Made by a program: the position numbers and the translations under genes. The notes under the pieces are model-generated. The model saw nothing but the letters and a program-made list of their open reading frames with translations. It searched no databases and was not told where the DNA came from. A stretch of DNA of 64,000 nt. It comes from Haloactinopolyspora alba (GTDB lineage: Bacteria; Actinomycetota; Actinomycetes; Jiangellales; Jiangellaceae). Shown here piece after piece: positions 6,021 through 60,269 of this stretch (position 1 is its first letter; the number at the start of each line of letters is the position of its first letter). The DNA lies in assembly GCF_003014555.1 (NCBI RefSeq), contig NZ_PYGE01000004.1, positions 124,001 through 188,000 of the forward strand, written 5' to 3'.

Positions 6021-6833
6021 TCAGCCCGCCGCGACGGCGCCGAGGTGGCCGATGACGGCCGGGGCGACGAGGTCGGGGCGCTGGGAATGCGGGTAGTGCC
6101 CGGCATCGGGCACCATCGTCACCGTCGCCGGTCCGCCGAGCGCGCCGGCGACGAACTCCGCCTCGGCGCGCGGGTCGGCGAAGTCCGGGTCCCGCTCGCC
6201 CATGACGATCAGCGCCGGCGCGGTGACCTCGCTGAGGCGGGGGGTGACCGGCTCGTGCGACGTCGCCGCGGTCCGCCGGAACGCCTGCCACGCGCCCGGC
6301 CGGCGCAGGCTCGCCTTGATGCGGGCGACGTGCTCGGCGAGATCGGGCGGGCGCGTCCCCTTGTGCAACGACGCGATGAAGGCGCCGGTCGCGGCGATGC
6401 CCCACGGCTTACGGAGCACGAGACCGGTGACCAGCCTGGCGGTCCAGCTGGCCGGCGGGTTGCGGACGTACGGCCCGAGCAGGACGGTGCCGCTGACCAG
6501 GTGTGGTTCCTCGGCGGCGGCCCACACGGCGGCGCCGGCGGCCATCGAGCTGCCGACGAGCGTCACCGGGCCGCCGCCGAGGTGGCGCACCAGGGCGATC
6601 AGGTCGCCGCCAGCGGCGACGTCGTCGTAGCTGGCGAACGTGGTGTCGCTGGCACCGTGCCCGCGCAGATCGACGGTGGCGACCCGGTAACCGGCTGCGA
6701 CCAGTGCCGGTGCCAGGAACCGGTACGTGGAGCGCACGTCGCCCAAGCCCGGCATCAAGACCACGAGCGGACCCTCGCCGCTGACGTCGTACGCCAGCCG
6801 GCCGTCCGGCCGGTCCAAAAAGCTATCTCCCAT
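6021..6833 (-). CDS. Alpha/beta hydrolase
   Basis: A 270-residue alpha/beta-hydrolase-fold enzyme. It shows the oxyanion region (VVLMPGLGDVRSTYR), DLRGHGAS, the nucleophile elbow LVGSSMAAGAA (GxSxA, Ser present), an Asp in VMGERDPDFAD and the catalytic His in PDAGHYPHSQ. It is cytoplasmic with no signal peptide; the substrate is unknown. The start at ATG 6833 coincides with the expected transcription start of a TTGACA-17-TAGCTT promoter, implying a leaderless mRNA. An alternative TTG at 6818 has GGGAGA seven bases upstream. It is first in an operon with the TetR gene at 5452-6015. Confidence 0.85.
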   Translation of the reverse strand: MGDSFLDRPDGRLAYDVSGEGPLVVLMPGLGDVRSTYRFLAPALVAAGYRVATVDLRGHGASDTTFASYDDVAAGGDLIALVRHLGGGPVTLVGSSMAAGAAVWAAAEEPHLVSGTVLLGPYVRNPPASWTARLVTGLVLRKPWGIAATGAFIASLHKGTRPPDLAEHVARIKASLRRPGAWQAFRRTAATSHEPVTPRLSEVTAPALIVMGERDPDFADPRAEAEFVAGALGGPATVTMVPDAGHYPHSQRPDLVAPAVIGHLGAVAAG

Positions 6834-49280: not shown

Positions 49281-49877
49281 TCACCGTGGCGCAGTGCTGG
49301 CCGGGGCGACGGTGGCGACGAGCCAGCCGCCCGCCGCCTCGTCGTGGACCAGGCCCACCTCCAGAACCATGCCGGTGTCGTACGTCAACACGCCGCCTGT
49401 CGTGTCGCTGTCGCCTGGGGCGTCGATCCGCACGCCGGTGAGCGTGCCGGTGGGGATGTCGGCGATCGGCACGTTCCGGTAGCGGGCCGCCTGGTCGTCG
49501 GTCAGCCAGGACGACAGCGCGGCGAACCATGCTTCCTGACCGAGACCTGTCCGCGTGAAGGTCCGCCCGAATCCGCGCGCCACCGCCGCCCACGACCGCG
49601 CGCTCTCGTTGGTCGCCGGTGCGGTCGGTGAGCGATCCCGCGGCGCCGGCGGCTGTGGCGGTCGCGACGGGAACGCGGCGGACACCTTGGCCGCGTGCAC
49701 ATCCTGCGCTGGCGGGCCTGACGGCAGCGAGACGTCGCCGGTGTCCGGCCGTGAGCTGACGATGGCGCCGACGGCGGCGAGACCGCTCAGTGCCACCAGG
49801 GCGACCAGCAGCCAGAGCCCGTGCCGACGCACCGTGGTCACCATCCGTCGCGCGAGAGCGGGGTCGTGGTCCGGCAT
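49281..49877 (-). CDS. Hypothetical single-pass membrane protein at the end of the Tad operon
   Basis: A 198-residue protein with a short cytoplasmic N-terminus, one transmembrane segment (LWLLVALVALSGLAAVGAIV), a Pro/Ala-rich stretch and a globular exterior (ARSWAAVARGFGRTFTRTGLGQEAWFAALSSWLTDDQAARY). I do not recognise the family. It lies downstream of the TadE/G-like genes on the same strand, so it may be a secretion-locus accessory protein. ATG 49877 has AAGGAG about ten bases upstream. Confidence 0.7.
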   Translation of the reverse strand: MPDHDPALARRMVTTVRRHGLWLLVALVALSGLAAVGAIVSSRPDTGDVSLPSGPPAQDVHAAKVSAAFPSRPPQPPAPRDRSPTAPATNESARSWAAVARGFGRTFTRTGLGQEAWFAALSSWLTDDQAARYRNVPIADIPTGTLTGVRIDAPGDSDTTGGVLTYDTGMVLEVGLVHDEAAGGWLVATVAPASTAPR

Positions 49878-49994
49878 CAGATGAGCACTCCTTCGCCAGG
49901 GAATCTCACCCTCTGTGGGTGCGCGGATCACCCCTCGGTGTGACACCGGCCGTACTCCGATGGCCGCCGATCCGTCGTCCAACGGGGCTGGGCA

Positions 49995-50426
49995 CTAACG
50001 GCCGGGACGTTCCAGCCCGGTCATGATCCGAACGGTGGCGTGCCCGGTTGCCTCGAGGGCGGTGACGCCGACGAGCGAGAGGATCCGGGCCGGTTCGGTG
50101 GCGCCGGTCCGGACGACGATCGTGTCGCCGCGCACCGCCACGCTTCCGCGCACGCCTGCGGCAGCGAGATGGCTCCTGGCCGCGGCCAGTGCTCGTGCAC
50201 GGTCGATCCCGCGGGATCCGGAAACCACCGCGCCGTTGATCTCCTGACCGGCGGCCCGCGCGGCCTCGGCGGCGACGTTGTCGGCGCGCTGCTGGGCGGT
50301 CATCTGCGCGCGTCCGTCGACCACCAGCCCCACCATCGCGACCAGCGCGAGGGCCACGACGACCACCATCAGGGTGATGCTGCCCGCCTCGGCGTGGTGC
50401 CGGTGACCGGCGCGGCGCAGCGGCAT
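49995..50426 (-). CDS. TadG-like pilus-assembly protein
   Basis: A 143-residue protein with a short basic start, HHAEAGSITLMVVVVALALVAMVGLVVDG (N-terminal membrane helix typical of TadE/TadG pseudopilins) and the helix RADNVAAEAARAAGQEI. Its start lies just downstream of the preceding gene's stop at 50429 (2-bp gap), and it is the most distal of three such proteins. Confidence 0.78.
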   Translation of the reverse strand: MPLRRAGHRHHAEAGSITLMVVVVALALVAMVGLVVDGRAQMTAQQRADNVAAEAARAAGQEINGAVVSGSRGIDRARALAAARSHLAAAGVRGSVAVRGDTIVVRTGATEPARILSLVGVTALEATGHATVRIMTGLERPGR

Positions 50427-50428
50427 CG

Positions 50429-50863
50429 TCACCGCTCCCGGTAGGTGTCGACCGGGCTCACCGCGGTGGCGGAGACCGTGATCGAGGGCAGCGTCAGCGG
50501 CAGGTCCGCGACCTTCAGCGGGCATGCGACGGTCACCGACACCCGGCCCGTTTCACCGGCGGCGCCGAACCCGGACGTGTCGACATCGACGAGCACGTCG
50601 AGGCAGGACAGTCCCTGATCGCGCAGCGAGAGGCGTGCGACGTCGGTGGCGGCCGCCTCGCCCGCGGATGGGCTGCGCTGCAGTGACGCCGCGCGAGCAG
50701 CATCTGCGGCGGCCTGGTCGACGGCGCCGTCCGCGATGGCGTGCCGGCCCGCGTACGTCAGCAGCGCCAGCAGCAGCAACAGACCGGGCGTGAGTATCGC
50801 GAGCTCCAGCGTCGCCGAGCCGCGGTCGCGCGCCGCGGCGGCGCCGGTCCTCCGGCGGCTCAC
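50429..50863 (-). CDS. TadE-like pseudopilin
   Basis: A 144-residue protein. ARDRGSATLELAILTPGLLLLLALLTYAGR is the TadE N-terminal signal/transmembrane motif (Gly-Ser-Ala-Thr-Leu-Glu at the processing site). Later sequence contains one Cys pair (SCLDVL, VACPLK). The GTG start overlaps the stop of the next-upstream TadE gene (GTGA, 50860). Confidence 0.82.
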   Translation of the reverse strand: MSRRRTGAAAARDRGSATLELAILTPGLLLLLALLTYAGRHAIADGAVDQAAADAARAASLQRSPSAGEAAATDVARLSLRDQGLSCLDVLVDVDTSGFGAAGETGRVSVTVACPLKVADLPLTLPSITVSATAVSPVDTYRER

Positions 50864-51258
50864 GGGTCGGTCCAACGCCGGATCGGCGCCGTGGACGACT
50901 GGCTCACGTCGATGGTCCACCCGGGGACGAGGGTCGTCGACTCGCCGGTGACCGTGACCGTCACGGAACCCTCGCCGACCTCCTGGGAGATCTCGTCGAC
51001 CCGTAGCAGCGACGTGCTCGCGGTGTCGGCGACGAACTCGGCGGCGCGCGCGGCGCCGTCGCCGCTCTCACCGAGGCTGCCGGCGCGTGCGCCTTCGTGC
51101 GCCGCGGTGAGCGCGACGTTGCGGGCGTGGTACCAGATGCCGGCCTGCACGATGCCGAAGATCAGCAGGAAGACCGCCGGCCACAAGACGACGGTCTCGA
51201 GGGTGACCGAACCGTGCTGGCCGTTCGGGAGAGCGCGACGGTGTCGTGGTGTGGCCAA
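50860..51258 (-). CDS. TadE-like pseudopilin
   Basis: A 132-residue TadE-family protein. GQHGSVTLETVVLWPAVFLLIFGIVQAGIWYHARNVALTAAHEGARAG is the processed N-terminus plus transmembrane helix, with the Glu at position +5 needed for pseudopilin processing. It lies 4 bp after the TadC gene. Confidence 0.85.
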   Translation of the reverse strand: MATPRHRRALPNGQHGSVTLETVVLWPAVFLLIFGIVQAGIWYHARNVALTAAHEGARAGSLGESGDGAARAAEFVADTASTSLLRVDEISQEVGEGSVTVTVTGESTTLVPGWTIDVSQSSTAPIRRWTDP

Positions 51259-51262
51259 TGCG

Positions 51263-52162
51263 CTATCCGATCTGCATGGCCACCGGCGCGGCCAGAATCA
51301 GCATGAACACGACCGACGTCGCGGCGAGCGGTGCGGTGGCGCGTTCGGTGCGGGCTCCGGCACGGGCGTGGTCGCCGGTGAGGATCTCGTTGCGCATCGT
51401 GGACGCACGTACGCGCAGGATGTCGTACACCGCCGCGCCCTCCCGCGCGGACAGCCGCATCACGTCCGCGGTCTCGGCCAGTTCGGGCAGCCGGAGCTCG
51501 TCTCCGACGGTGCGCAGCGCATCCCAGGCGGGGGTGCCCGCCCACCGGGCCTGGGCCAGTTCGTCACGCAGGCGCTGGAAAGCCCAGGAGTCGGCGATCG
51601 TGGCGGCGGACTCCAGAGCCTGCGTCGTCCCGGCGCCGGCCGCGCGCTCCAGTGCGACGAGGTCGACGTAGGAGGTCATGGTGCGCCGGAACTCTCGTCG
51701 TGAGGTTCTGGCCAGGTCGGCGACGTTGTACAGCGGCAGGTAGGACATCGCCGCGCCGGTGACGAGGCCGACACCCGCGGGCACGGTCAACGGAAGGGTG
51801 ACGCCGTTGACGGCGAGGGCCAGCGTGCACGCCGGCGGGAGTGCGAGACCGATCGCCCCGTAGAGAGCACGCTCACCCAGGTACCGGGCCACGCTCGTGC
51901 GCAGGAGCGCGAGGTCACGATGCGGGATGTGCAGGAGAGCCGCACCGGAGGTGCGACGCAGGACGACCCTGCCCAGCCGGTCGGTACGGCTGTCGCCGCC
52001 GATCAGGTCGACCGTCGACGACGTCGTCGCGGTGAGCCGCGCCGCCGTGTGCGCGGCATGCGGCTGACGTATCCGCTGCCCCAGTAGCTCGCGGAACAGC
52101 AGGATCAGGCCGGTTCCCGCGCCGAGCCCCAGCAGGATGGCGAGTTGGACGGTCGAGATCAC
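51263..52162 (-). CDS. tadC: TadC-like type II secretion system F-domain protein
   Basis: A 299-residue inner-membrane protein with an N-terminal helix (LAILLGLGAGTGLILLFREL), central helices around GLVTGAAMSYLPLYNVADLA, the cytoplasmic T2SSF block (REFRRTMTSYVDLVALERAAGAG, MRLSAREGAAVYDILR) and a C-terminal helix (VVFMLILAAPVAMQIG). GTG 52162 overlaps the TadB stop. It forms the membrane platform of the machine with TadB. Confidence 0.86.
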   Translation of the reverse strand: MISTVQLAILLGLGAGTGLILLFRELLGQRIRQPHAAHTAARLTATTSSTVDLIGGDSRTDRLGRVVLRRTSGAALLHIPHRDLALLRTSVARYLGERALYGAIGLALPPACTLALAVNGVTLPLTVPAGVGLVTGAAMSYLPLYNVADLARTSRREFRRTMTSYVDLVALERAAGAGTTQALESAATIADSWAFQRLRDELAQARWAGTPAWDALRTVGDELRLPELAETADVMRLSAREGAAVYDILRVRASTMRNEILTGDHARAGARTERATAPLAATSVVFMLILAAPVAMQIG

Positions 52163-53043
52163 GCCGGGCTCCCCGGCACCGCATCGGCCCCGGCGAACAG
52201 CCGGGGTTGCCGGGGCGTACGCGTGATGTGACGCATCCACAGCAGGCACGCCACGTAACACCCGAGAAGGCCGGCCAGGATCAGCTGCCCCAACGGCGTT
52301 CGGTAGGGCTCTGCGTACGGCGTGAGCAGCATCATCCCGAGTCCGGTGGCGCTGATCATGGTCACGAGCCGGGCGGTCGTGCGTCCCTTCGCCTGCTCGG
52401 CGTCGACCGAGCGGCGCACCCGGACGTCGTCGCGGACCGCCGCGGCCAGGCCGTCGAGCACGCTGCTGAGCTGGCTGCCCCGGCGCGTCGCGCCCAGGAT
52501 CAGCGCCGCGGCCAGGAAGTCGCCGGTGGCGTCGTCGAGATCGTCGGCGAACGCCCGCAGCGCCACGGTGGTGTCCCACCGTGCGTGCAGCCGCGCGACA
52601 AGCCTGGCCACCTCGGTCCGGATCGGAGCTGGCGTCGACTGGACGCTGGTGGTCAGCGCCTGCTCGATGCCGACACCCACCCCCAGCACACTGGAGAGAT
52701 TGTGCGCCCACTCGCTCATCGCCTCGAGCCGCGCGATCTCGGACTTGCTCGACGACGTCTGCAACAGAACGGGTAGACCCCAGACTGCGGCGGGCAGGAC
52801 GAGCACCGCGAGCACCCATCCGCTGACCAACCACACCGCGAGCCCGACGGCAGCGGCGGCGGCCAGGCGGCGGCGGGATCGGCGCTCGGCCGGCGTGCGC
52901 CCACGTGCCGCGGCCACCCGGCTGCGTACCCCGCCGCGACGGGGCCGTGCCGCATCCACCGGCACCTTGACCAGGCCGATGCCGGTGGCCGCGAGTCCGC
53001 CGACGCCCGCGATCGCGGTGAACGCGGCGATCATCGGTGTCAC
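52159..53043 (-). CDS. tadB: TadB-like type II secretion system F-domain protein
   Basis: A 294-residue inner-membrane platform protein. Transmembrane segments include AAAAVGLAVWLVSGWVLAVLVLPAAVWGLPVLL and LGQLILAGLLGCYVACLLW. The T2SSF block has GVGVGIEQALTTSVQSTPAPIRTEVARLVAR and GDFLAAALILGATRRGSQLSSVLDGLA. GTG 53043 overlaps the TadA stop (GTGA), indicating tight coupling. Confidence 0.86.
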   Translation of the reverse strand: MTPMIAAFTAIAGVGGLAATGIGLVKVPVDAARPRRGGVRSRVAAARGRTPAERRSRRRLAAAAAVGLAVWLVSGWVLAVLVLPAAVWGLPVLLQTSSSKSEIARLEAMSEWAHNLSSVLGVGVGIEQALTTSVQSTPAPIRTEVARLVARLHARWDTTVALRAFADDLDDATGDFLAAALILGATRRGSQLSSVLDGLAAAVRDDVRVRRSVDAEQAKGRTTARLVTMISATGLGMMLLTPYAEPYRTPLGQLILAGLLGCYVACLLWMRHITRTPRQPRLFAGADAVPGSPA

Positions 53044-54560
53044 GACGGGTCCCTGCCGACGGCATGGCTGCGGCGGGTGTCGTAACCGTAAGCGGCGAGT
53101 TCGGACATCCACGCCGGCGCCGACGCGGCGACGAGCTCGCCGTCCGGTCCGGCCCGGAACACGTCGGTGACCGCGGGCATCCCCCGCTCACCGGGCTCCA
53201 GGGCGATGATCTCCGCGACCCGACGGGTACGCCGCATGCCCTCACCGTTGCGGACATCATGCCGTTCGACGTGCACGACGAGATCGATGTGCTGCGCGAT
53301 CTGCCGGTAGGCGAACTCCGCGGTGATGTGGGGTCCGGCTTCCATGGCGCAGGTGACGATGCGCTCGATGGCCGCACGGGCGGAGTGCGCGTGGATGGTC
53401 GACAGCGACCCCGCGCCGGACTGCATCGCCTTGAACATCGGCAGTACTTCTGGCCCGCGGACCTCACCGACGATCAGCCGGTCGAGGTTCATCCGCAGCG
53501 AGTCGTAGACGAGGTCGTCGAGGGTGATCTCGCCGACCGCGCGCCCGTCCGGGCCGCGCTCACCGCTGCCGGGCCGCGACTCCCAGGCGATGATGCGGTG
53601 GTGCCGGTCGCGCATGTGATGCAGACCCAGTTCGTACTCCGTCTCGATGGTGCCGAGCTTCTCCTCCGGATCGATCTCGTTCGCGAGGGCGCGGACCAGC
53701 GTCGTCTTGCCCGAGCCCATCGATCCGGAGACGAGCACGCTGCGCCGCGCACGCACCGCGGCGCGCAGGAACCCGCACGCTTGCGGCGTGAGAGTGTCGC
53801 GTTCGGTCAGATCGGACAGGTCGACGTCGACGAGCCGATGCCGCCGGATCACGACGACCGGCTGGTGTGTCGTCCAGCCGGATGCCGCGAGCCGGTGCCC
53901 GCCGTGCAGGTGCAGGTGAAGACTGGGGCTGGCCGTCGAGAACGTCCGTTCGTGCGCGCCGCCGCGCGTCGCGAGGAACGCGAGCATGTCGACCAGCTCG
54001 TCCTCGGTGTCCACGATCGGGGGTTGCCGAGTGATGGCACCGTCAGCGTCGATGACGACCACCGGTTCGGCGCCGTAGACCTCGATGTTCTCGACGGTGG
54101 GATCGTCGAGAAGCGGTTGTAGCCGCCCGAGGCCGAACAGCGCATCGAAGACCGCCTGGGCGAGTGCGGCCTGCTGCTCGACGTCGATGGCGGCGTCGCC
54201 GTTCGTGACCGCCTCTCGTACGTGCTCCTCGAGGATCTGCGCGATGATCTCGCGCCCGATGTCACGTCGGCTTTCCTCGCCGGTGCTCTCGTCGACCTGG
54301 TCGGACAGCCGTGCCGCCGCCTGCTGACGGAGGGCGCGGACCTGGGCCCAGTCGAGCGCGCGGTCACCATCGGCTCGGGTGACGGCCGGACCGGGCGGGC
54401 GCCGGCGACCCGTCGTGGATCGCTGTGTCGGCATCGGCATCGCGGTGAGGATCTCACGTGGGCTCCGCGGGGGCGGCCGGTCGTGATCGACGGCGGATTC
54501 CGGTGGTGCGTCGAAGATGGGCAGCCGCGTGATGTCGGCGCCGTCCGGCGGGTGGCTCAT
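53040..54560 (-). CDS. tadA: TadA/CpaF secretion ATPase
   Basis: A 506-residue hexameric ATPase of the secretion-ATPase family. Walker A is SVLVSGSMGSGKTTLVRAL, Walker B is DRLIVGEVRGPEVLP, and a His box is LSTIHAHSARAAIERI. The N-terminal roughly 60 residues are Pro/Arg-rich. The start overlaps the TadZ stop (ATGA). It energises the assembly of Tad pili or pseudopili. Confidence 0.92.
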   Translation of the reverse strand: MSHPPDGADITRLPIFDAPPESAVDHDRPPPRSPREILTAMPMPTQRSTTGRRRPPGPAVTRADGDRALDWAQVRALRQQAAARLSDQVDESTGEESRRDIGREIIAQILEEHVREAVTNGDAAIDVEQQAALAQAVFDALFGLGRLQPLLDDPTVENIEVYGAEPVVVIDADGAITRQPPIVDTEDELVDMLAFLATRGGAHERTFSTASPSLHLHLHGGHRLAASGWTTHQPVVVIRRHRLVDVDLSDLTERDTLTPQACGFLRAAVRARRSVLVSGSMGSGKTTLVRALANEIDPEEKLGTIETEYELGLHHMRDRHHRIIAWESRPGSGERGPDGRAVGEITLDDLVYDSLRMNLDRLIVGEVRGPEVLPMFKAMQSGAGSLSTIHAHSARAAIERIVTCAMEAGPHITAEFAYRQIAQHIDLVVHVERHDVRNGEGMRRTRRVAEIIALEPGERGMPAVTDVFRAGPDGELVAASAPAWMSELAAYGYDTRRSHAVGRDPS

Positions 54561-55375
54561 CCGGAACGCACCTCCACGGCCCTGTCCGCAGGCCCCTCGA
54601 GCCATTGACGTCGGCGTTCGCAGGCGGCCAGCAGTTCGGAGACGGCGTCGCGGCCGGAGCGGAGCAGCCGCGACCGGCTCAGGCGCGTCAGCCCGGTCCG
54701 GACCCGGTCGTGCCCGTTCAGTCGGTCGGCCGCGACCGGGTCCCACGCCATCGAGGCCCACACCGGAAGCGTGGTCGCCGCGGCGGCCTCGGCGGCGCGG
54801 TGCGGGCGGCCGGCACCGACCAGGACCAGGCCGCGTCGCTGGGCCGCGGCGTCGGTTTCCGCCCCCGGCAGCTGGTCGACGTTGGCGCGCACCGAGACCA
54901 GGTCGTCCAAGCCCGTCCGGGAAACCACGGCGAGCAGATCGGCGGCTCGCAGTAGCGGGTCTGGGCCGTGGCGCATTCCGTACCGTCCGGCGTCGACGAT
55001 CACGTCGACACCCTGGCGCCCGAGACCGGCGAACAGGACGCTCAGCGACGACCAGAACCCGTCGGACAACGAGCCCGTCTGTGCACGCGTCGCCAGTCCG
55101 GGCAGGACGAGGCGGCTACGGTCCTCGGTCAGCGGGATCGTCTCGTGGCGCAGGCTTTCGAGGGTCATCGCACCATTGCGATGGGCCAGTGCCATGGTGA
55201 TCAGATTGCGCCGGTGGTCGTACTCGCCACGCAGGTGCCCGGCCTTGACGCTGCTGCTTCCGCTCACGTCCGCCTCGACGAGCAGCACCGGCCGTGGCCA
55301 TGTGAGGGTGGCGACGAGGGCCGTCGTCGTGGTCCCGGGAGCGCCGCGCGCGGACGTCAATGCCACGACCGTCAC
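54557..55375 (-). CDS. TadZ/CpaE-like ParA-family ATPase homologue lacking Walker lysine
   Basis: A 272-residue protein of the MinD/ParA fold. The P-loop reads SARGAPGTTTTALVATL, in which the Lys of GGxGKT is absent, as in some TadZ proteins that localise pili rather than hydrolyse ATP. VLLVEADVSG is the Walker A-prime-like strand. It sits between the SAF-domain gene and tadA with 4-bp overlaps on both sides. Confidence 0.8.
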   Translation of the reverse strand: MTVVALTSARGAPGTTTTALVATLTWPRPVLLVEADVSGSSSVKAGHLRGEYDHRRNLITMALAHRNGAMTLESLRHETIPLTEDRSRLVLPGLATRAQTGSLSDGFWSSLSVLFAGLGRQGVDVIVDAGRYGMRHGPDPLLRAADLLAVVSRTGLDDLVSVRANVDQLPGAETDAAAQRRGLVLVGAGRPHRAAEAAAATTLPVWASMAWDPVAADRLNGHDRVRTGLTRLSRSRLLRSGRDAVSELLAACERRRQWLEGPADRAVEVRSG

Positions 55376-56115
55376 GATTCGGCGCCCGTGTCGCCCCCGG
55401 CGGGGGTTTCCCGGAGATCCGCGGCGGAGTCCAGGACGATGGCCACGCGGCCGGTGGCGACCCGGGCGACCAGCGTGCCGGCAGCATCGTCGGTGACGAG
55501 CACGTCCACGATGCGCATCCCGTTGTCGTCGAGGCGGGACACACCCACTACCGTCGCGGGTGTCGACGCGGGCGCCGCCTTCGGTGGGGCGTCGCCCTGA
55601 CGCGGTGTGTCGAAGATCCGGACCGGGTCGCCGGGAACCAGCTCCTCTCGTGGCGTCTGCGCCTTGGTCACGGCCACGCCGACGATGGTCTGGCCCGCCG
55701 CCGGTAGCTCACCCGCCGTCACGGACGCCGGCGTGAGCAGGGACCCCGCGGTGAGGTCGGCGGCGGCGCGCTGGCCCACCACGTGATCCCGCTCCGCCAC
55801 CGCGACCGGATCCAGCGCCGGGTCGGGGACGGCGCGGGCACTCGTCAGATCGGAGTCGGAGATGACCTGGCCGCGGTGGACGTCGGCGGCGACCGCCAGG
55901 ACGGGCACCGTGTCACCGCTGCGCTGGGTCAGATAGGCGGCACCGGCGCCGCAGACGGCGAGCAGGGCGAGCCCCAGGCCGATCATCGCGGGACGTCGTC
56001 GATATCGCCGGTCAGCGTGCCCGATGTCGGCCGGACCGTGCTCGGACGCGTGGGCATGCGGATCGCGGCCGCGTCGCGACGCGACGGCGGTGTCCGCATC
56101 GCTCGAGTGGATCAT
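55372..56115 (-). CDS. cpaB: SAF-domain protein (CpaB/RcpC-like)
   Basis: A 247-residue protein with an N-terminal cytoplasmic tail, a transmembrane segment (MIGLGLALLAVCGAGAAYLT) and a SAF domain (VLAVAADVHRGQVISDSDLTSARA, then DLTAGSLLTPASVT). CpaB/RcpC proteins stabilise the Tad secretin or cell-envelope channel. It is the first gene of the tadZABC operon. Confidence 0.83.
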   Translation of the reverse strand: MIHSSDADTAVASRRGRDPHAHASEHGPADIGHADRRYRRRPAMIGLGLALLAVCGAGAAYLTQRSGDTVPVLAVAADVHRGQVISDSDLTSARAVPDPALDPVAVAERDHVVGQRAAADLTAGSLLTPASVTAGELPAAGQTIVGVAVTKAQTPREELVPGDPVRIFDTPRQGDAPPKAAPASTPATVVGVSRLDDNGMRIVDVLVTDDAAGTLVARVATGRVAIVLDSAADLRETPAGGDTGAES

Positions 56116-56193: not shown

Positions 56194-57015
56194 TCACCGA
56201 ATGTTAGTGATCGTGTCGACCGTGTCAAAACGAGGGGATCGGGAGCGGTCGCCGTGTGACCGTGTCGCCGCTGCGAGAACCTTGGTCGCCCGCCGGCAGC
56301 GTTGCCGGACCGCGGCGGCGGTCAGTCCCAGCCGTGCCGCGGCGGCGTTCGCGCCGCCCGCCTGGCCGGGCCCGGGGCAGTACACGCCGGTGAGCAGCGC
56401 CGCATCGTCCGCGTCGATCGCTCCGACGTCGACGCCCCAGGCCAGCGTCTGCAGCAGTTCGAGAGCAGGCGCCGGCGTCGGCGCGGTGAGGACCGACTCG
56501 GGAGTCTCGGTCACGAGGTGGTCGGGGATCTCGACGGCTCGGTCGTCCAGCAATGCGGTGAAGTACCGCAGCGCGTCCATGCTCAGATTGACCGACACCT
56601 TGCTGCGTCGTCGGCGGACCGGATAAGCGGCGATGGCCTGCCACAGGCCCGCCACGGCCGCGGCGGTCAGTTGTGCGAGATCGCCACGGATGCCGTGTGC
56701 GCCGTGGCGGTGTGCACGGCGGGCGAGGTTGACCGCCCGGCCCAGCATGACTTGCAGCACCAGCCGGCCCGCGAGTTCGTCCGCACCGTCGATGTGCCGG
56801 GCGAGCAGAGCGAGCAGGAGCTCGTCCGCATCGTCGGGCCGGTGCCGGCGTGCGTGAGCGATGACGTCGAACGCGTCGGAGAGGCAGGTGCACCATGCGA
56901 GCGGCGGGAGACTCCAGTTTCGCGGCACCGGGCGGCCGCCCAGGACCGACCACTCGGCGTTCAGTTGATCGGTGATGAGGCTGTCGTGCCCGCGTGCGGC
57001 GGTGTCGACGGTCAT
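56194..57015 (-). CDS. Sigma-factor-like DNA-binding protein beside the Tad operon
   Basis: A 273-residue protein whose C-terminal segment AAAARLGLTAAAVRQRCRRATKVL is a sigma-region-4-type helix-turn-helix. The N-terminal part is helical and Cys/Trp-containing (PPLAWCTCLSDAFDVIAHARRH). I see no clear sigma region 2, so a full sigma factor is uncertain. ATG 57015 has AAGGAG about ten bases upstream. It lies upstream of cpaB and is divergent from the LysM-BTAD gene, placing it as a likely regulator of the locus. The 245-bp gap to 57261 carries GTGTCAC direct repeats (57199, 57219). Confidence 0.72.
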   Translation of the reverse strand: MTVDTAARGHDSLITDQLNAEWSVLGGRPVPRNWSLPPLAWCTCLSDAFDVIAHARRHRPDDADELLLALLARHIDGADELAGRLVLQVMLGRAVNLARRAHRHGAHGIRGDLAQLTAAAVAGLWQAIAAYPVRRRRSKVSVNLSMDALRYFTALLDDRAVEIPDHLVTETPESVLTAPTPAPALELLQTLAWGVDVGAIDADDAALLTGVYCPGPGQAGGANAAAARLGLTAAAVRQRCRRATKVLAAATRSHGDRSRSPRFDTVDTITNIR

Positions 57016-57260
57016 GAGAGTGGGGCTCCTTCCGAGCGGGTCGCGCTGACGGAGGTAGCCCATCGCCGGCCGGTAGCCCTGCGGATAGCCCTGGAGGCCA
57101 CCGGTCGGTTGCCCTGGACGGATCTTCGGTTGCCCCCGCGGCGCGAGCACGGTCGTGGATCAGGCAACCTGGGCGGCTTCCGGATTCTGGAGGCGTCCGT
57201 GTCACGATCCGTGACTCGGTGTCACCCACAGGTTCAGACACGGAATGGGGGTTTTGCGGA

Positions 57261-60200
57261 ATGAACCACACGCCCCGGTGGCGGGATCGGCACCTCACAC
57301 GCGCCCTCCGAGGCCTGGGGGCGCTGGTGATACTGGTTGCCCTCGTCGCCGGTGTTCCCGGGATGCTGTGGGTGATCGACGGTTCACCGGTGTCCGGCGG
57401 ACTGCCGGAGCCGGATGCGATCCGGCACGCGGTCACGCGGCCCGACGACGGCACGTTGTTCCTGAACGCACTGATCCTCGTCGGATGGTTCGGGTGGGCG
57501 ACGTTCGCACTCAGCGTGCTGGTCGAGATCCCGGCGGCGGTGCGGGGCGTCCCGGCGCCCCGGTTGCCCGGACTGCGGGCCCAGCAGCGGTTCGTCGCCG
57601 CGTTGATCACCACGGCCGCGACGGCGGTGCCCACGGCACAGATGGCCGCGGCGAACACCCCGGCCACGGTCGTCGCCGTCACTGCTGGCACCGCCGCCAC
57701 CGCCGCTACCGCTGGCACCGAGCCTGTGGCCGCTGTCGCCGGTGCGGGCGAGCGCGGGCCGTGGAAGCCGGCGCCGCCGGTGACGCGTGACCTCCTCGAG
57801 TCCCCGCCCGACGGCGCTCGGAGCTACCGGGTCGTTGCCGGCGACACGTTGTGGGACGTCGCCGGTGCGCAGCTCGGAGACCCCACGCGCTACCGGGAGA
57901 TCTTCCACGCCTCGACCGCGACCGTGCAGCCGGACGGGAAGCGACTCACCGACCCCGACGTCATCAACCCGGGGTGGACGCTGACCATCCCGGGCAGCTC
58001 CACTGACTCCGCGGACGAGCCGTCCCGAGCGCAGGAGGACGGACGGCGACAGCTCCGCCATCCGACCTCTGCTGCCGCGCCGCAGCCGACGACGCCGGCG
58101 CCACCGGCGACGCCGGCGCCAGCGGCACCGGCCCGCACACCTGACGTCGAGTACGACGACACGTCGGTGGGCGCGGTCGGGGGTCTGCCCCGTCATGCTT
58201 CCGATCAGGCTGCGGACGCGCTGGCCGACTGCCTCGGTGCGGGTGACACCGGCGTCTCCGAGGTCGAGGACGACGCGAGTCTCGGTGGTCTGCTCCGCAC
58301 CGGTGGTGGTGTGGGTGCGGTGCTCGCCACCGGGCTGATCGGCGTGCTCACCGCGCGCCGCGGCGTACGGCAACGACGACGACGGGCCGGCCAACGGCTC
58401 GCCGCGGCGGCCGCCCCTGATCACGCCGCCGAGGTGGAGCTTCGCCACGTCGCCGACCCTTCCGGCATGGAGCTCGTCGACCGGACGCTACGAGGACTGG
58501 CGGTCGAGCTGGGCCGGAGCGGAAGACCGGTGCCGACACTGCGGGCGGTCCGCCTGGCGGGCGAGACGCTCGAGCTCTACCTGGAGTCCGCGACCGAACT
58601 GCCGCCGCCGTTCGTCGATCTCTCCGCGGGCCGGTTGTGGAGCGTTCCGGCCGTGAGCGACGTGCCGGGCGCCGATCCCGACGACCAGCCGGCTCCTTAT
58701 CCGAGCCTGGTGACCCTCGGCCACGATCACGAGGACGGCCTGCTTCTCGTCGATCTCGAGCGGCTCGGCGTGCTGCACGTCGACGGCCCCGATCCGGTCG
58801 CGTCCGCTGTGGTGGCGGCCGTCGCAGCGGAGTGTGCGACGAGCCCGTGGGCGGATGATCTCAGGGTGAGCCTGGTGGGTGGCGCCGACTGGGCACACCT
58901 GGACGCGCTCGAGACCGGCCGAGTCCGGCGAGTGGACGATGTCGACCGTCTTCTGGACGAACTGAGCGTCCGAGCCGCGGACGACCGTCGGCTGCTCGCC
59001 GAGGCCGGAGCGGACGGTGTCGGCGCCGCCCGCGGACGGCACGTCGCCGACGCCACCTGGACGCCCGAGATCATCCTGACCGACGAGCGACTGCCCACCG
59101 AACAGCTACGCAGGCTGGACGCCCTGGTGGCCGACGCTCCACATGTCGCCGTCGCGGCCGTGACGCGCGGCCCGGCGCCGACCGGACGGTGGCAACTCAG
59201 GGTCTCGGGCGACCCGGAGGCGCCGGCAGGCGTGCTCGAGCCGCTCGGCATGCTCGTCCGTCCGCAACTCCTGAACCGCTCCACGGCCGACCACATGGTC
59301 GGGCTGCTGCGGACGGCCGACAGCGGCGTTGTCGGGACGGCCACGGCCGAACCCGATCTCGACCGCCTGCCGGTGTTGCCGGAAGCCGGACACCGCGGGT
59401 TCGAGCCTCTGCTCATGGACGTGACCGACGACAAGTCAACCGAGGACGGGCAGGCAGCGTCGGCCGAACCCCGGCAGCCGGAATCGCCCGGACGTCAGGT
59501 GCCGACGCTGGCGATGCTCGGCCCGGTCAGCGTCGTCCACACGGCCGAGCTCGGAGAGCGCAACAAGCGCGGACAACTCACCGAGCTGGCGATGTTCATC
59601 GCGATGAACCCGGGGTGCGACGTCGACGCCATCGACGAAGCCATCTGGCCCGGTTCGACGGTCACCCGGATCACCAGGAACACCGCGATCTCCAAGCTCC
59701 GTCGATGGCTGGGAACCGATGCGCACGGCGCTCCGCTGCTGCCACGGACCGAAGGACGGTACGCGTTCCTTCCCGAGGTGCGTAGCGACTGGCAGGAGTG
59801 GTGCGACCTCCTGCCCGACGGTCCCGCGTCCGCGAGCACGTCCGAGCTGCGCGCGGCCCTGGCGTTGGTCCGCGGGCGCCCGTTCTCCGGCCGCGGCCGG
59901 AGGCCGTACGCCTGGGCCGACCACCAGGCGCAGGAGATGATCGCGGCGATCGTCGACGCGTGTCACGAGTTGGCCGTGCGGATGATGAACGCCGGCGAGC
60001 CGCGAGAGGCGTTGCGGGCCGCGTTGCTCGGGCTGACGGTCGAACCGGGCGTCGAGCTGCTGTGGCGCGACCGTCTCAAGGCGGAAGTGCAGCTCGGAGA
60101 CCGCTCCACGGTCCTGGCCAGCGTGGAGCAGTTGCGCGTCACCGCGGACGAGCTCGGTGGCGATCTCGAGGACGACACCGAGAGGTTGGTCGAGCAGATC

Positions 60201-60269
60201 CTCCGGCGACAGGCACGGACGGTGCGGGCGGCGTCGGCGGGCGCGTCCCGGCCGGCCGGTGAACCGTAG
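57261..60269 (+). CDS. Membrane protein with LysM and C-terminal BTAD domains
   Basis: A 1002-residue protein. It starts with transmembrane helices (about 18-40 and 66-91). A LysM-type peptidoglycan-binding module follows (about 188-245: SYRVVAGDTLWDVAGAQLGDP ... INPGWTLTIPG), then a Pro/Ala linker and a third membrane segment (GGGVGAVLATGLIGVLTA). Residues about 360-730 form a large cytoplasmic region of unknown fold. The C-terminus (about 750-990) is a BTAD-like module with KRGQLTELAMFIAMNPGCDVDAIDEAIWPGS, a wing-like start. Such LysM-BTAD proteins recur beside actinobacterial Tad loci, and a wall-sensing regulator is suggested. Divergent from the sigma-like gene. Confidence 0.84.
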   Translation: MNHTPRWRDRHLTRALRGLGALVILVALVAGVPGMLWVIDGSPVSGGLPEPDAIRHAVTRPDDGTLFLNALILVGWFGWATFALSVLVEIPAAVRGVPAPRLPGLRAQQRFVAALITTAATAVPTAQMAAANTPATVVAVTAGTAATAATAGTEPVAAVAGAGERGPWKPAPPVTRDLLESPPDGARSYRVVAGDTLWDVAGAQLGDPTRYREIFHASTATVQPDGKRLTDPDVINPGWTLTIPGSSTDSADEPSRAQEDGRRQLRHPTSAAAPQPTTPAPPATPAPAAPARTPDVEYDDTSVGAVGGLPRHASDQAADALADCLGAGDTGVSEVEDDASLGGLLRTGGGVGAVLATGLIGVLTARRGVRQRRRRAGQRLAAAAAPDHAAEVELRHVADPSGMELVDRTLRGLAVELGRSGRPVPTLRAVRLAGETLELYLESATELPPPFVDLSAGRLWSVPAVSDVPGADPDDQPAPYPSLVTLGHDHEDGLLLVDLERLGVLHVDGPDPVASAVVAAVAAECATSPWADDLRVSLVGGADWAHLDALETGRVRRVDDVDRLLDELSVRAADDRRLLAEAGADGVGAARGRHVADATWTPEIILTDERLPTEQLRRLDALVADAPHVAVAAVTRGPAPTGRWQLRVSGDPEAPAGVLEPLGMLVRPQLLNRSTADHMVGLLRTADSGVVGTATAEPDLDRLPVLPEAGHRGFEPLLMDVTDDKSTEDGQAASAEPRQPESPGRQVPTLAMLGPVSVVHTAELGERNKRGQLTELAMFIAMNPGCDVDAIDEAIWPGSTVTRITRNTAISKLRRWLGTDAHGAPLLPRTEGRYAFLPEVRSDWQEWCDLLPDGPASASTSELRAALALVRGRPFSGRGRRPYAWADHQAQEMIAAIVDACHELAVRMMNAGEPREALRAALLGLTVEPGVELLWRDRLKAEVQLGDRSTVLASVEQLRVTADELGGDLEDDTERLVEQILRRQARTVRAASAGASRPAGEP

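Follow-up and report, generated by a model that had tools for sequence, protein, structure and literature searches.

A LysM-BTAD membrane protein as a candidate membrane-tethered regulator and dedicated partner of one Tad pilus subtype in actinobacteria

Regulators that carry a winged-helix DNA-binding domain (wHTH) are built in more than one way. EmbR and the classical SARPs are soluble proteins with the regulator module at the N-terminus, and CadC, ToxR and TcpP have an N-terminal wHTH and one membrane segment. Monoderm actinobacteria have to fix a Tad pilus in a thick wall and also to switch it on. Here we describe a gene at the end of a tad cluster in a 64,000-nt stretch of the Haloactinopolyspora alba genome (contig NZ_PYGE01000004.1, positions 124,001 to 188,000; hereafter the window). 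Its product, the LysM-BTAD protein, belongs to a family that joins a wall-binding domain and a DNA-binding module in one chain and is, as judged from gene linkage and sequence comparison, the dedicated partner of one Tad (Flp pilus) subtype across actinobacteria. With both modules in one chain, the question of anchoring versus regulation becomes directly testable.

The closest described case is PAGK_2369 of the Cutibacterium acnes plasmid pIMPLE-HL096PA1, tabulated in 2013 as "LysM, BTAD" within a Tad locus and labelled TadB (PMC3666418, Table 2). As far as that table and its account go, PAGK_2369 resembles the window protein in having LysM and BTAD in one protein, in a Tad locus with SAF/RcpC, TadZ, TadA, TadB/C and TadE and with a sigma-70-type gene upstream. 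It differs in the TadB label and in that the part of the account available to us gives no wHTH, FtsK-like domain, topology or family; the two were compared by description only. Five Cutibacterium plasmid records matched our query. Apart from PMC3666418, the titles and opening lines of abstracts in the open literature on LysM with BTAD, SARP or Tad yielded no description of the family that we recognised. In the portions of two Micrococcus luteus papers that were available, "LysM" was not found in one (PMC4322843) and neither "LysM" nor "BTAD" in the other (PMC8467076), which does report a drop in transformability of at least 1000-fold through a point mutation in an FtsK/SpoIIIE-type gene next to tad-1. 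The LysM-BTAD family is large, actinobacterial and almost unstudied.

Three copies of the LysM-BTAD gene are present in the H. alba genome, on contigs C4 (the window), C14 and C2, each adjoining tad genes. With this genome included, the family was matched in 13 of 21 genomes, and the middle domain of the protein was found in 16 genomes of an even draw of 198 across the phylum. Relatives occur on chromosomes and in plasmid records: 222 of the latter matched the query, some perhaps by LysM or BTAD alone, and among the matches listed 34 of 40 plasmid records bear the bare name "LysM peptidoglycan-binding domain-containing protein". We collected 43 loci outside Micromonospora (three from H. alba, four plasmid records, 20 chosen places and 16 places in other genomes), and tadA was within the fetched stretch in 37 of them. 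The six without it include L106 and L140, both at a contig end, L132, with a TadG match and a TadE-like frame at its edge, L136, with only a TadG-like match, and L145, where the LysM-BTAD match is split over short frames. At the sixth, L097 (G006:C10), there are no tad matches within 20 kb; a tadA of cluster-I type and a sigma-like gene lie ~32-35 kb away on the same contig (the numbers I, II and IV are our labels for clusters).

The linkage was also counted from the side of TadA, in H. alba and nine genomes of its family (G001-G003, G006-G008 and G010-G012). The limit of E <= 1e-60 was set after the list was seen, in a gap that runs from E 7.7e-64 to 3.1e-38. For every one of the 25 TadA proteins within this limit, the contig also encodes a partner of LysM-BTAD or LysM type, at most 10 kb away in 24 cases and ~32 kb away in one (G006:C10). 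The 13 weaker TadA proteins (E 1e-60 to 1e-20) have no such partner inside 100 kb, or inside the shorter distance that their contigs allow. Two fragmented genomes were left out of the tally; there the partner was on the contig for two of four (G009) and two of three (G019) TadA proteins. The distances among LysM-BTAD proteins follow those among TadA proteins over 35 pairs (Mantel r 0.833, reached by none of 5000 permutations, which ignore shared descent); the 35 come from 38 sequences, with L097 and L106, which lack TadA, and L114, which is cut, left out. An earlier note on this DNA had tied the protein to the Tad locus and had called it unusual. The tie is stronger than that note could know, and the supposed peculiarity of the window locus is not borne out, given three copies in one genome and a partnership with one Tad subtype across actinobacteria.

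At the C-terminal end of the protein, where the same note had placed a BTAD, a whole-protein Pfam scan gives PF03704 above its cut-off (E 6e-8). A profile of 23 aligned sequences over residues 748-990 matched EmbR across both the wHTH and the BTAD (E 4.5e-6). The next match was the wHTH of CadC (E 0.0069); those to ToxR and TcpP were weak (E 0.57-0.93) and without probative value. The SARP feature of a wHTH followed by a BTAD is therefore present, and the module sits at residues 748-981 of 1002, behind four predicted membrane segments, and not at the N-terminus of a soluble protein. The SARP-type end proposed in the earlier note thus stands and is predicted to be cytoplasmic; the note had overlooked the wHTH at about residues 748-845, with which the end becomes a full SARP module. 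The putative recognition helix (about residues 801-818) has five lysine or arginine residues and no aspartate or glutamate; of the 23 sequences, all have R814 and no fewer than 90% have R806. Helices like TRNTAISKLRRWLG recur in clusters I and II and in one Streptomyces plasmid. Weak TPR matches fall within the BTAD in seven of the 23. Mean column identity is 49% in the C-terminal part, 39% in the middle and 25% at the N-terminus, in sets of sequences that differ. Alignments A1 and A2 were made without L114 (cut at a contig end); of the 26 remaining rows, L099, L104 and L106 were also left out and 23 used. A phage origin was considered and dropped, as the wHTH-BTAD part had no match in the phage collection; viral contigs yielded no relatives.

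The N-terminal part is predicted to place a wall-binding domain outside the membrane, as had been claimed before. LysM (PF01476) fell below the cut-off in the whole-protein scan (E 0.0035, 17.7 bits) and exceeded the curated cut-off when the N-terminal part was scanned alone (21.6 versus 20.9 bits). When 19 rows were scanned, the window included, 14 showed it (best E 4.5e-14), and two LysM-like stretches are visible by eye in some relatives; alignment A3 comprised 19 chosen rows. A hydropathy pattern of four segments is common to most relatives. Directly after the fourth segment, residues 366-384 include eight lysine or arginine residues and no aspartate or glutamate, and by prediction the charge distribution fits a protein with its N-terminus in, LysM out and C-terminus in. 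Since the third segment is weak in the window protein and, by our own reading, signal-peptide-like in some relatives, cleavage there may be possible.

Between the fourth membrane segment and the wHTH, residues 385-700 had no convincing Pfam or PDB family match. An hhalign comparison with 22 FtsK/EccC domains, drawn from 29 places located in related genomes, gave P 6.1e-4 and a probability of 28.6% over 160 aligned columns, and by our own reading the alignment is co-linear from the strand preceding the P-loop to the Walker B region. Controls for the same domain gave P 0.40 (TadA), 0.42 (TadZ), 0.40 (TadB) and 0.83 (the reversed FtsK/EccC set). Subsets scored less well: FtsK alone P 0.044 (reversed 0.09), EccC domain 1 0.0029 (reversed 0.53), EccC domain 2 0.0011 and other FtsK-like domains 0.30. 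For the Walker A motif GxxGxGK[ST], no GK[ST] stands at the aligned place in 27 rows. The middle part is likely, not proven, to be a degenerate FtsK/EccC-like domain, for which ATP hydrolysis is not predicted. Two KorB matches of this part (E 0.031 and 0.051) were taken as chance, and a single-sequence AlphaFold2 model of the cytoplasmic part was not used (mean predicted local distance difference test score 40.3).

A shorter form of the protein is found in Micromonospora and close kin (by record title), for which 75 loci were found through N-terminal and other peptide patterns. The N-terminal profile matches all 75, and each locus has at least one tad match, 73 of them tadA. The frame is closed by a stop before the regulator half in 69 loci, with at least 2 kb following in 66; in the other six it runs off the contig and is uninformative. 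The layout of three membrane segments, LysM and a fourth membrane segment was read in L007 and L079. These comparisons suggest a constant pairing of the Tad machine with the LysM-membrane half, from which the regulator half is separable.

Table 1. Features of the LysM-BTAD gene and of the neighbouring tad cluster, in window coordinates
Feature	Position	Strand	Basis or remark
LysM-BTAD protein P0001, 1002 residues	57261..60269	+	ATG start, no internal stop
Membrane segment 1, residues 21-39	57321..57377	+	hydropathy 2.59
Membrane segment 2, residues 70-88	57468..57524	+	hydropathy 2.06
Membrane segment 3, residues 111-129, weak	57591..57647	+	hydropathy 1.37
LysM domain, residues 189-244, predicted extracytoplasmic	57825..57992	+	Pfam
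Membrane segment 4, residues 347-365	58299..58355	+	hydropathy 1.45-1.55
Probable degenerate FtsK/EccC-like domain without Walker A, residues 385-700, aligned core ~479-641	58413..59360	+	profile comparison
wHTH, SARP type, residues 748-845	59502..59795	+	profile match to EmbR, CadC
BTAD domain, residues 853-981	59817..60203	+	Pfam; found in 23/23 rows scanned
Promoter-like element TGTCAC-N17-CACCCACAG, 29 nt before the LysM-BTAD ATG	57200..57231	+	kept in 6 genomes; 0 in 100 shuffles
Repeat array	57072..57135		on the sigma-like gene's strand: GGGCAAC, GGGCAAC, GGGCTA, GGGCTA
Sigma-like gene, start revised	56194..57015	-	AAGGAG upstream of ATG 57015
CpaB/RcpC-like SAF protein	55372..56115	-	Pfam
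TadZ-like	54557..55375	-	position and homologues; no Pfam match
TadA ATPase, start approximate	53040..54695	-	Pfam
TadB	52159..53112	-	Pfam
TadC, start approximate	51263..52160	-	homologues annotated type II secretion system F family
TadE	50860..51258	-	Pfam
Second TadE-like and TadG-like genes	49995..50920	-	homologues
Second copy of promoter-like element (N18), before the 198-residue gene	49913..49945	-	other end of tad cluster
198-residue protein behind the second promoter-like element	49281..49877	-	homologue in L095 and L101

The LysM-BTAD gene in the window is indeed divergent from the sigma-like gene and the Tad operon, as first described, and this head-to-head order is found in six genomes (the window, L095, L100, L101, L107 and L114). 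Usually the gene follows TadG in the same orientation; its divergent placement is a local variant. The order in the four plasmids that we read is SAF, TadZ, TadA, TadB, TadC, a small open reading frame (ORF), pilin-like genes and LysM-BTAD, with further genes preceding LysM-BTAD in the Micrococcus plasmid. By our own reading, the most likely start codon of the sigma-like gene is ATG 57015, which has AAGGAG upstream, and not GTG 57150; the shared intergenic region is then ~245 bp. The sigma assignment is weak: the window protein has no Pfam match, and in its family Sigma70 region 4 was matched in four of ten rows (best E 0.0072) and an unrelated family in one row with E 0.00043. An alpha-L-rhamnosidase match (E 0.054) was taken as chance. 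At the other end of the cluster, the 198-residue protein has a hydrophobic N-terminal segment by our own reading and no Pfam match. Only 5 bp separate tadC and tadE in the window (51258-51263), which leaves no space for a short Flp-type pilin ORF; candidates for such a pilin were seen in L083 (76 residues, at 6252-6482) and in L091 (a 66-residue ORF). In cluster IV of L083 (7822-16244), a WXG100 gene (E 2e-6) and a 1551-residue FtsK/EccC-like gene (E 1.4e-57) come after the tad genes and LysM-BTAD, which puts a Tad and a type VII-like secretion gene set in one array, with neighbours that we take to be ndk and folC. G001, G002 and G003 likewise have FtsK-type matches a short way downstream of their cluster IV copy.

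Two kinds of intergenic element were found near the LysM-BTAD gene. The window has two copies of the promoter-like pattern TGTCAC-N17-CACCCAYAG, one at each end of the tad cluster and one of them with N18; 100 shuffles gave none. With spacers of 16-18 nt it is present in seven of the 21 genomes, and its reversed control in none. The genomes that encode a sigma-like protein of 59% identity or more are exactly six of these seven; G008, the remaining one, has a single site and lacks such a protein. With one mismatch allowed, the H. alba genome has five sites versus one for the control, a count not used further. In the part of PMC3426412 that was available, the ECF41 consensus is TGTCACA-n16-CGTC; the first half of our element equals its -35 consensus and the second half differs. 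In G007 and G011 the element stands 5 nt before the GTG starts of several genes (L116-L122). Among six of the downstream genes that were scanned, Pfam matches to ART (ADP-ribosyltransferase), a calpain-type protease and PIN exceed the cut-off, those to DUF3800 and Phd/YefM stay under it, and one gene has no match. The element may mark a leaderless regulon of ECF type that includes toxin-like genes and goes together with the presence of the sigma-like protein in a genome.

The second element is an array of short direct repeats. Four of the six head-to-head genomes have GGGCAAC, 33 bp, GGGCTAA, 12 bp and GGGCTAA; the arrays of the window and L095 deviate in letters or distances, and that of the paralogous cluster II has GGGCAAG. 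To discriminate between the possible owners of the array, we took 16 stretches around sigma-like genes, 12 of them without a tad or LysM-BTAD match. Heptamers 33-34 bp apart precede ten of these 12 genes, the exceptions being L198 and L199; the tad-linked L184 and L185 lack the 33-bp spacing, and L177 and L178 gave no result in the repeat scan. The array thus goes with the sigma-like family and is no evidence for binding by the LysM-BTAD protein; it had been attractive as an operator of that protein and was rejected as evidence for this. In related genomes (L184-L197) a GGGCAAC/G array with common spacings of 21, 33 and 12 precedes most sigma-like genes, with tad or without, and looks like an autoregulatory site of this uncharacterised family. 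The 12-bp repeat precedes other genes too. A search for the repeat pattern gave 13 sites in seven of the 21 genomes versus five for its reversed control.

We put the chance at nearly even that the LysM-BTAD protein is a dedicated membrane partner of the Tad subtype and acts as a membrane-tethered transcription regulator, coupling machine state and wall attachment to gene expression. LysM would bind peptidoglycan at the pilus site, and a change in the wall or in the assembled Tad machine would pass via the fourth membrane segment to the FtsK-like domain. This domain could serve as an oligomerisation platform without ATP hydrolysis, and a change in it would alter DNA binding by the wHTH, as in regulators of the CadC/ToxR type. 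The targets may include its own tad genes; regulation of tad is put forward as a hypothesis. Several observations weigh against this reading. The recognition helix of cluster IV is less basic, of the VREATFARVREWLG type, and the upstream regions of six cluster IV operons showed no repeat in common; an operator could not be assigned, the adjacent array going with the sigma-like family. About 32 kb separate the L097 copy from its tad cluster, and the partner on G012:C4, among the 25 counted above, looks like an N-terminal half only. In the fragmented genomes, three TadA proteins of the subtype (G009 C210 and C178, G019 C438) have no partner on their contig; C210, of 12.7 kb, carries the tad genes as far as TadG and gave no match to LysM-BTAD. 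In the stored locus DNA of Micromonospora and close kin, the profiles of the middle and of the wHTH-BTAD each matched none of the 75 loci, the rest of those genomes not being searched. The membrane-LysM half in tad loci without the regulator half implies that the latter may be dispensable in some Tad systems.

In another reading, which is possible and falls clearly short of an even chance, the protein would belong to the structure of the Tad machine. Its LysM and membrane segments would fix the basal body to the wall, in monoderms that to our knowledge have no outer-membrane secretin, and the cytoplasmic pseudo-ATPase and the TPR-like BTAD would form a scaffold for TadA/TadZ, with a wHTH that no longer acts on DNA. 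The usual place of the gene behind TadG, the Micromonospora proteins reduced to membrane segments and LysM (as read in L007 and L079), the strong co-divergence with TadA and the weak TPR matches in seven of 23 sequences all speak for such a role; a pure scaffold, however, would have no need of a wHTH-BTAD that is the most conserved part and has a basic recognition helix in most clades. Since conservation is highest in the DNA-binding end, we favour the membrane-tethered SARP over the anchor; both roles can be combined in one protein. A DNA-binding regulator with main targets other than its tad genes, such as the WXG100/EccC-like secretion genes next to it in cluster IV or genes at other places in the genome, seems improbable. 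It would suit the secretion genes behind the L083 copy, the FtsK-type matches downstream in three more genomes and the distance of the L097 copy from its tad cluster, but the constant feature of the family is tad genes, not secretion genes. Less credible still is binding of the LysM-BTAD protein to the GGGCAAC/GGGCTAA array with activation of the sigma-like gene and the tad operon. According to the part of PMC10972967 available to us, the sites of SARPs are direct repeats of heptamers separated by 4-15 nt, and direct repeats spaced 33 and 12 bp are present in clusters I and II; heptamers 33-34 bp apart, however, also stand before ten of the 12 sigma-like genes with no tad or LysM-BTAD gene in the fetched stretch, and the six cluster IV operons have no such repeats. 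If the membrane-tethered SARP is taken further, a new class of one-component signalling can be pictured, in which a wall-anchored pseudo-FtsK membrane assembly in the Tad machine offers the chromosome a SARP domain, so that promoters are informed directly of pilus assembly or wall contact, the regulator half having been added to or removed from the constant LysM-membrane half in different actinobacteria. We regard this broader picture as doubtful.

Parts of the LysM-BTAD protein can be set beside several known systems. The middle domain shares with the FtsK/EccC ATPases a co-linear profile similarity over ~160 columns, and unlike them it has no Walker A motif. The Micromonospora LysM protein (L007-L081) has, as read in L007 and L079, the same three membrane segments, LysM and fourth segment and lies in a tad locus, whereas its frame ends after the fourth segment wherever the contig shows it, and the stored DNA holds no cytoplasmic module. 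The family shares with EmbR and the SARPs a wHTH and a BTAD, with a profile match over both; unlike theirs, the module stands at the C-terminus of a membrane protein. As in CadC, ToxR and TcpP, a cytoplasmic wHTH is, by prediction, tied through the membrane to an extracytoplasmic domain. Unlike these regulators, the LysM-BTAD protein has its wHTH at the C-terminal end, four predicted membrane segments and LysM as the outer domain, together with a BTAD and a probable FtsK-like domain.

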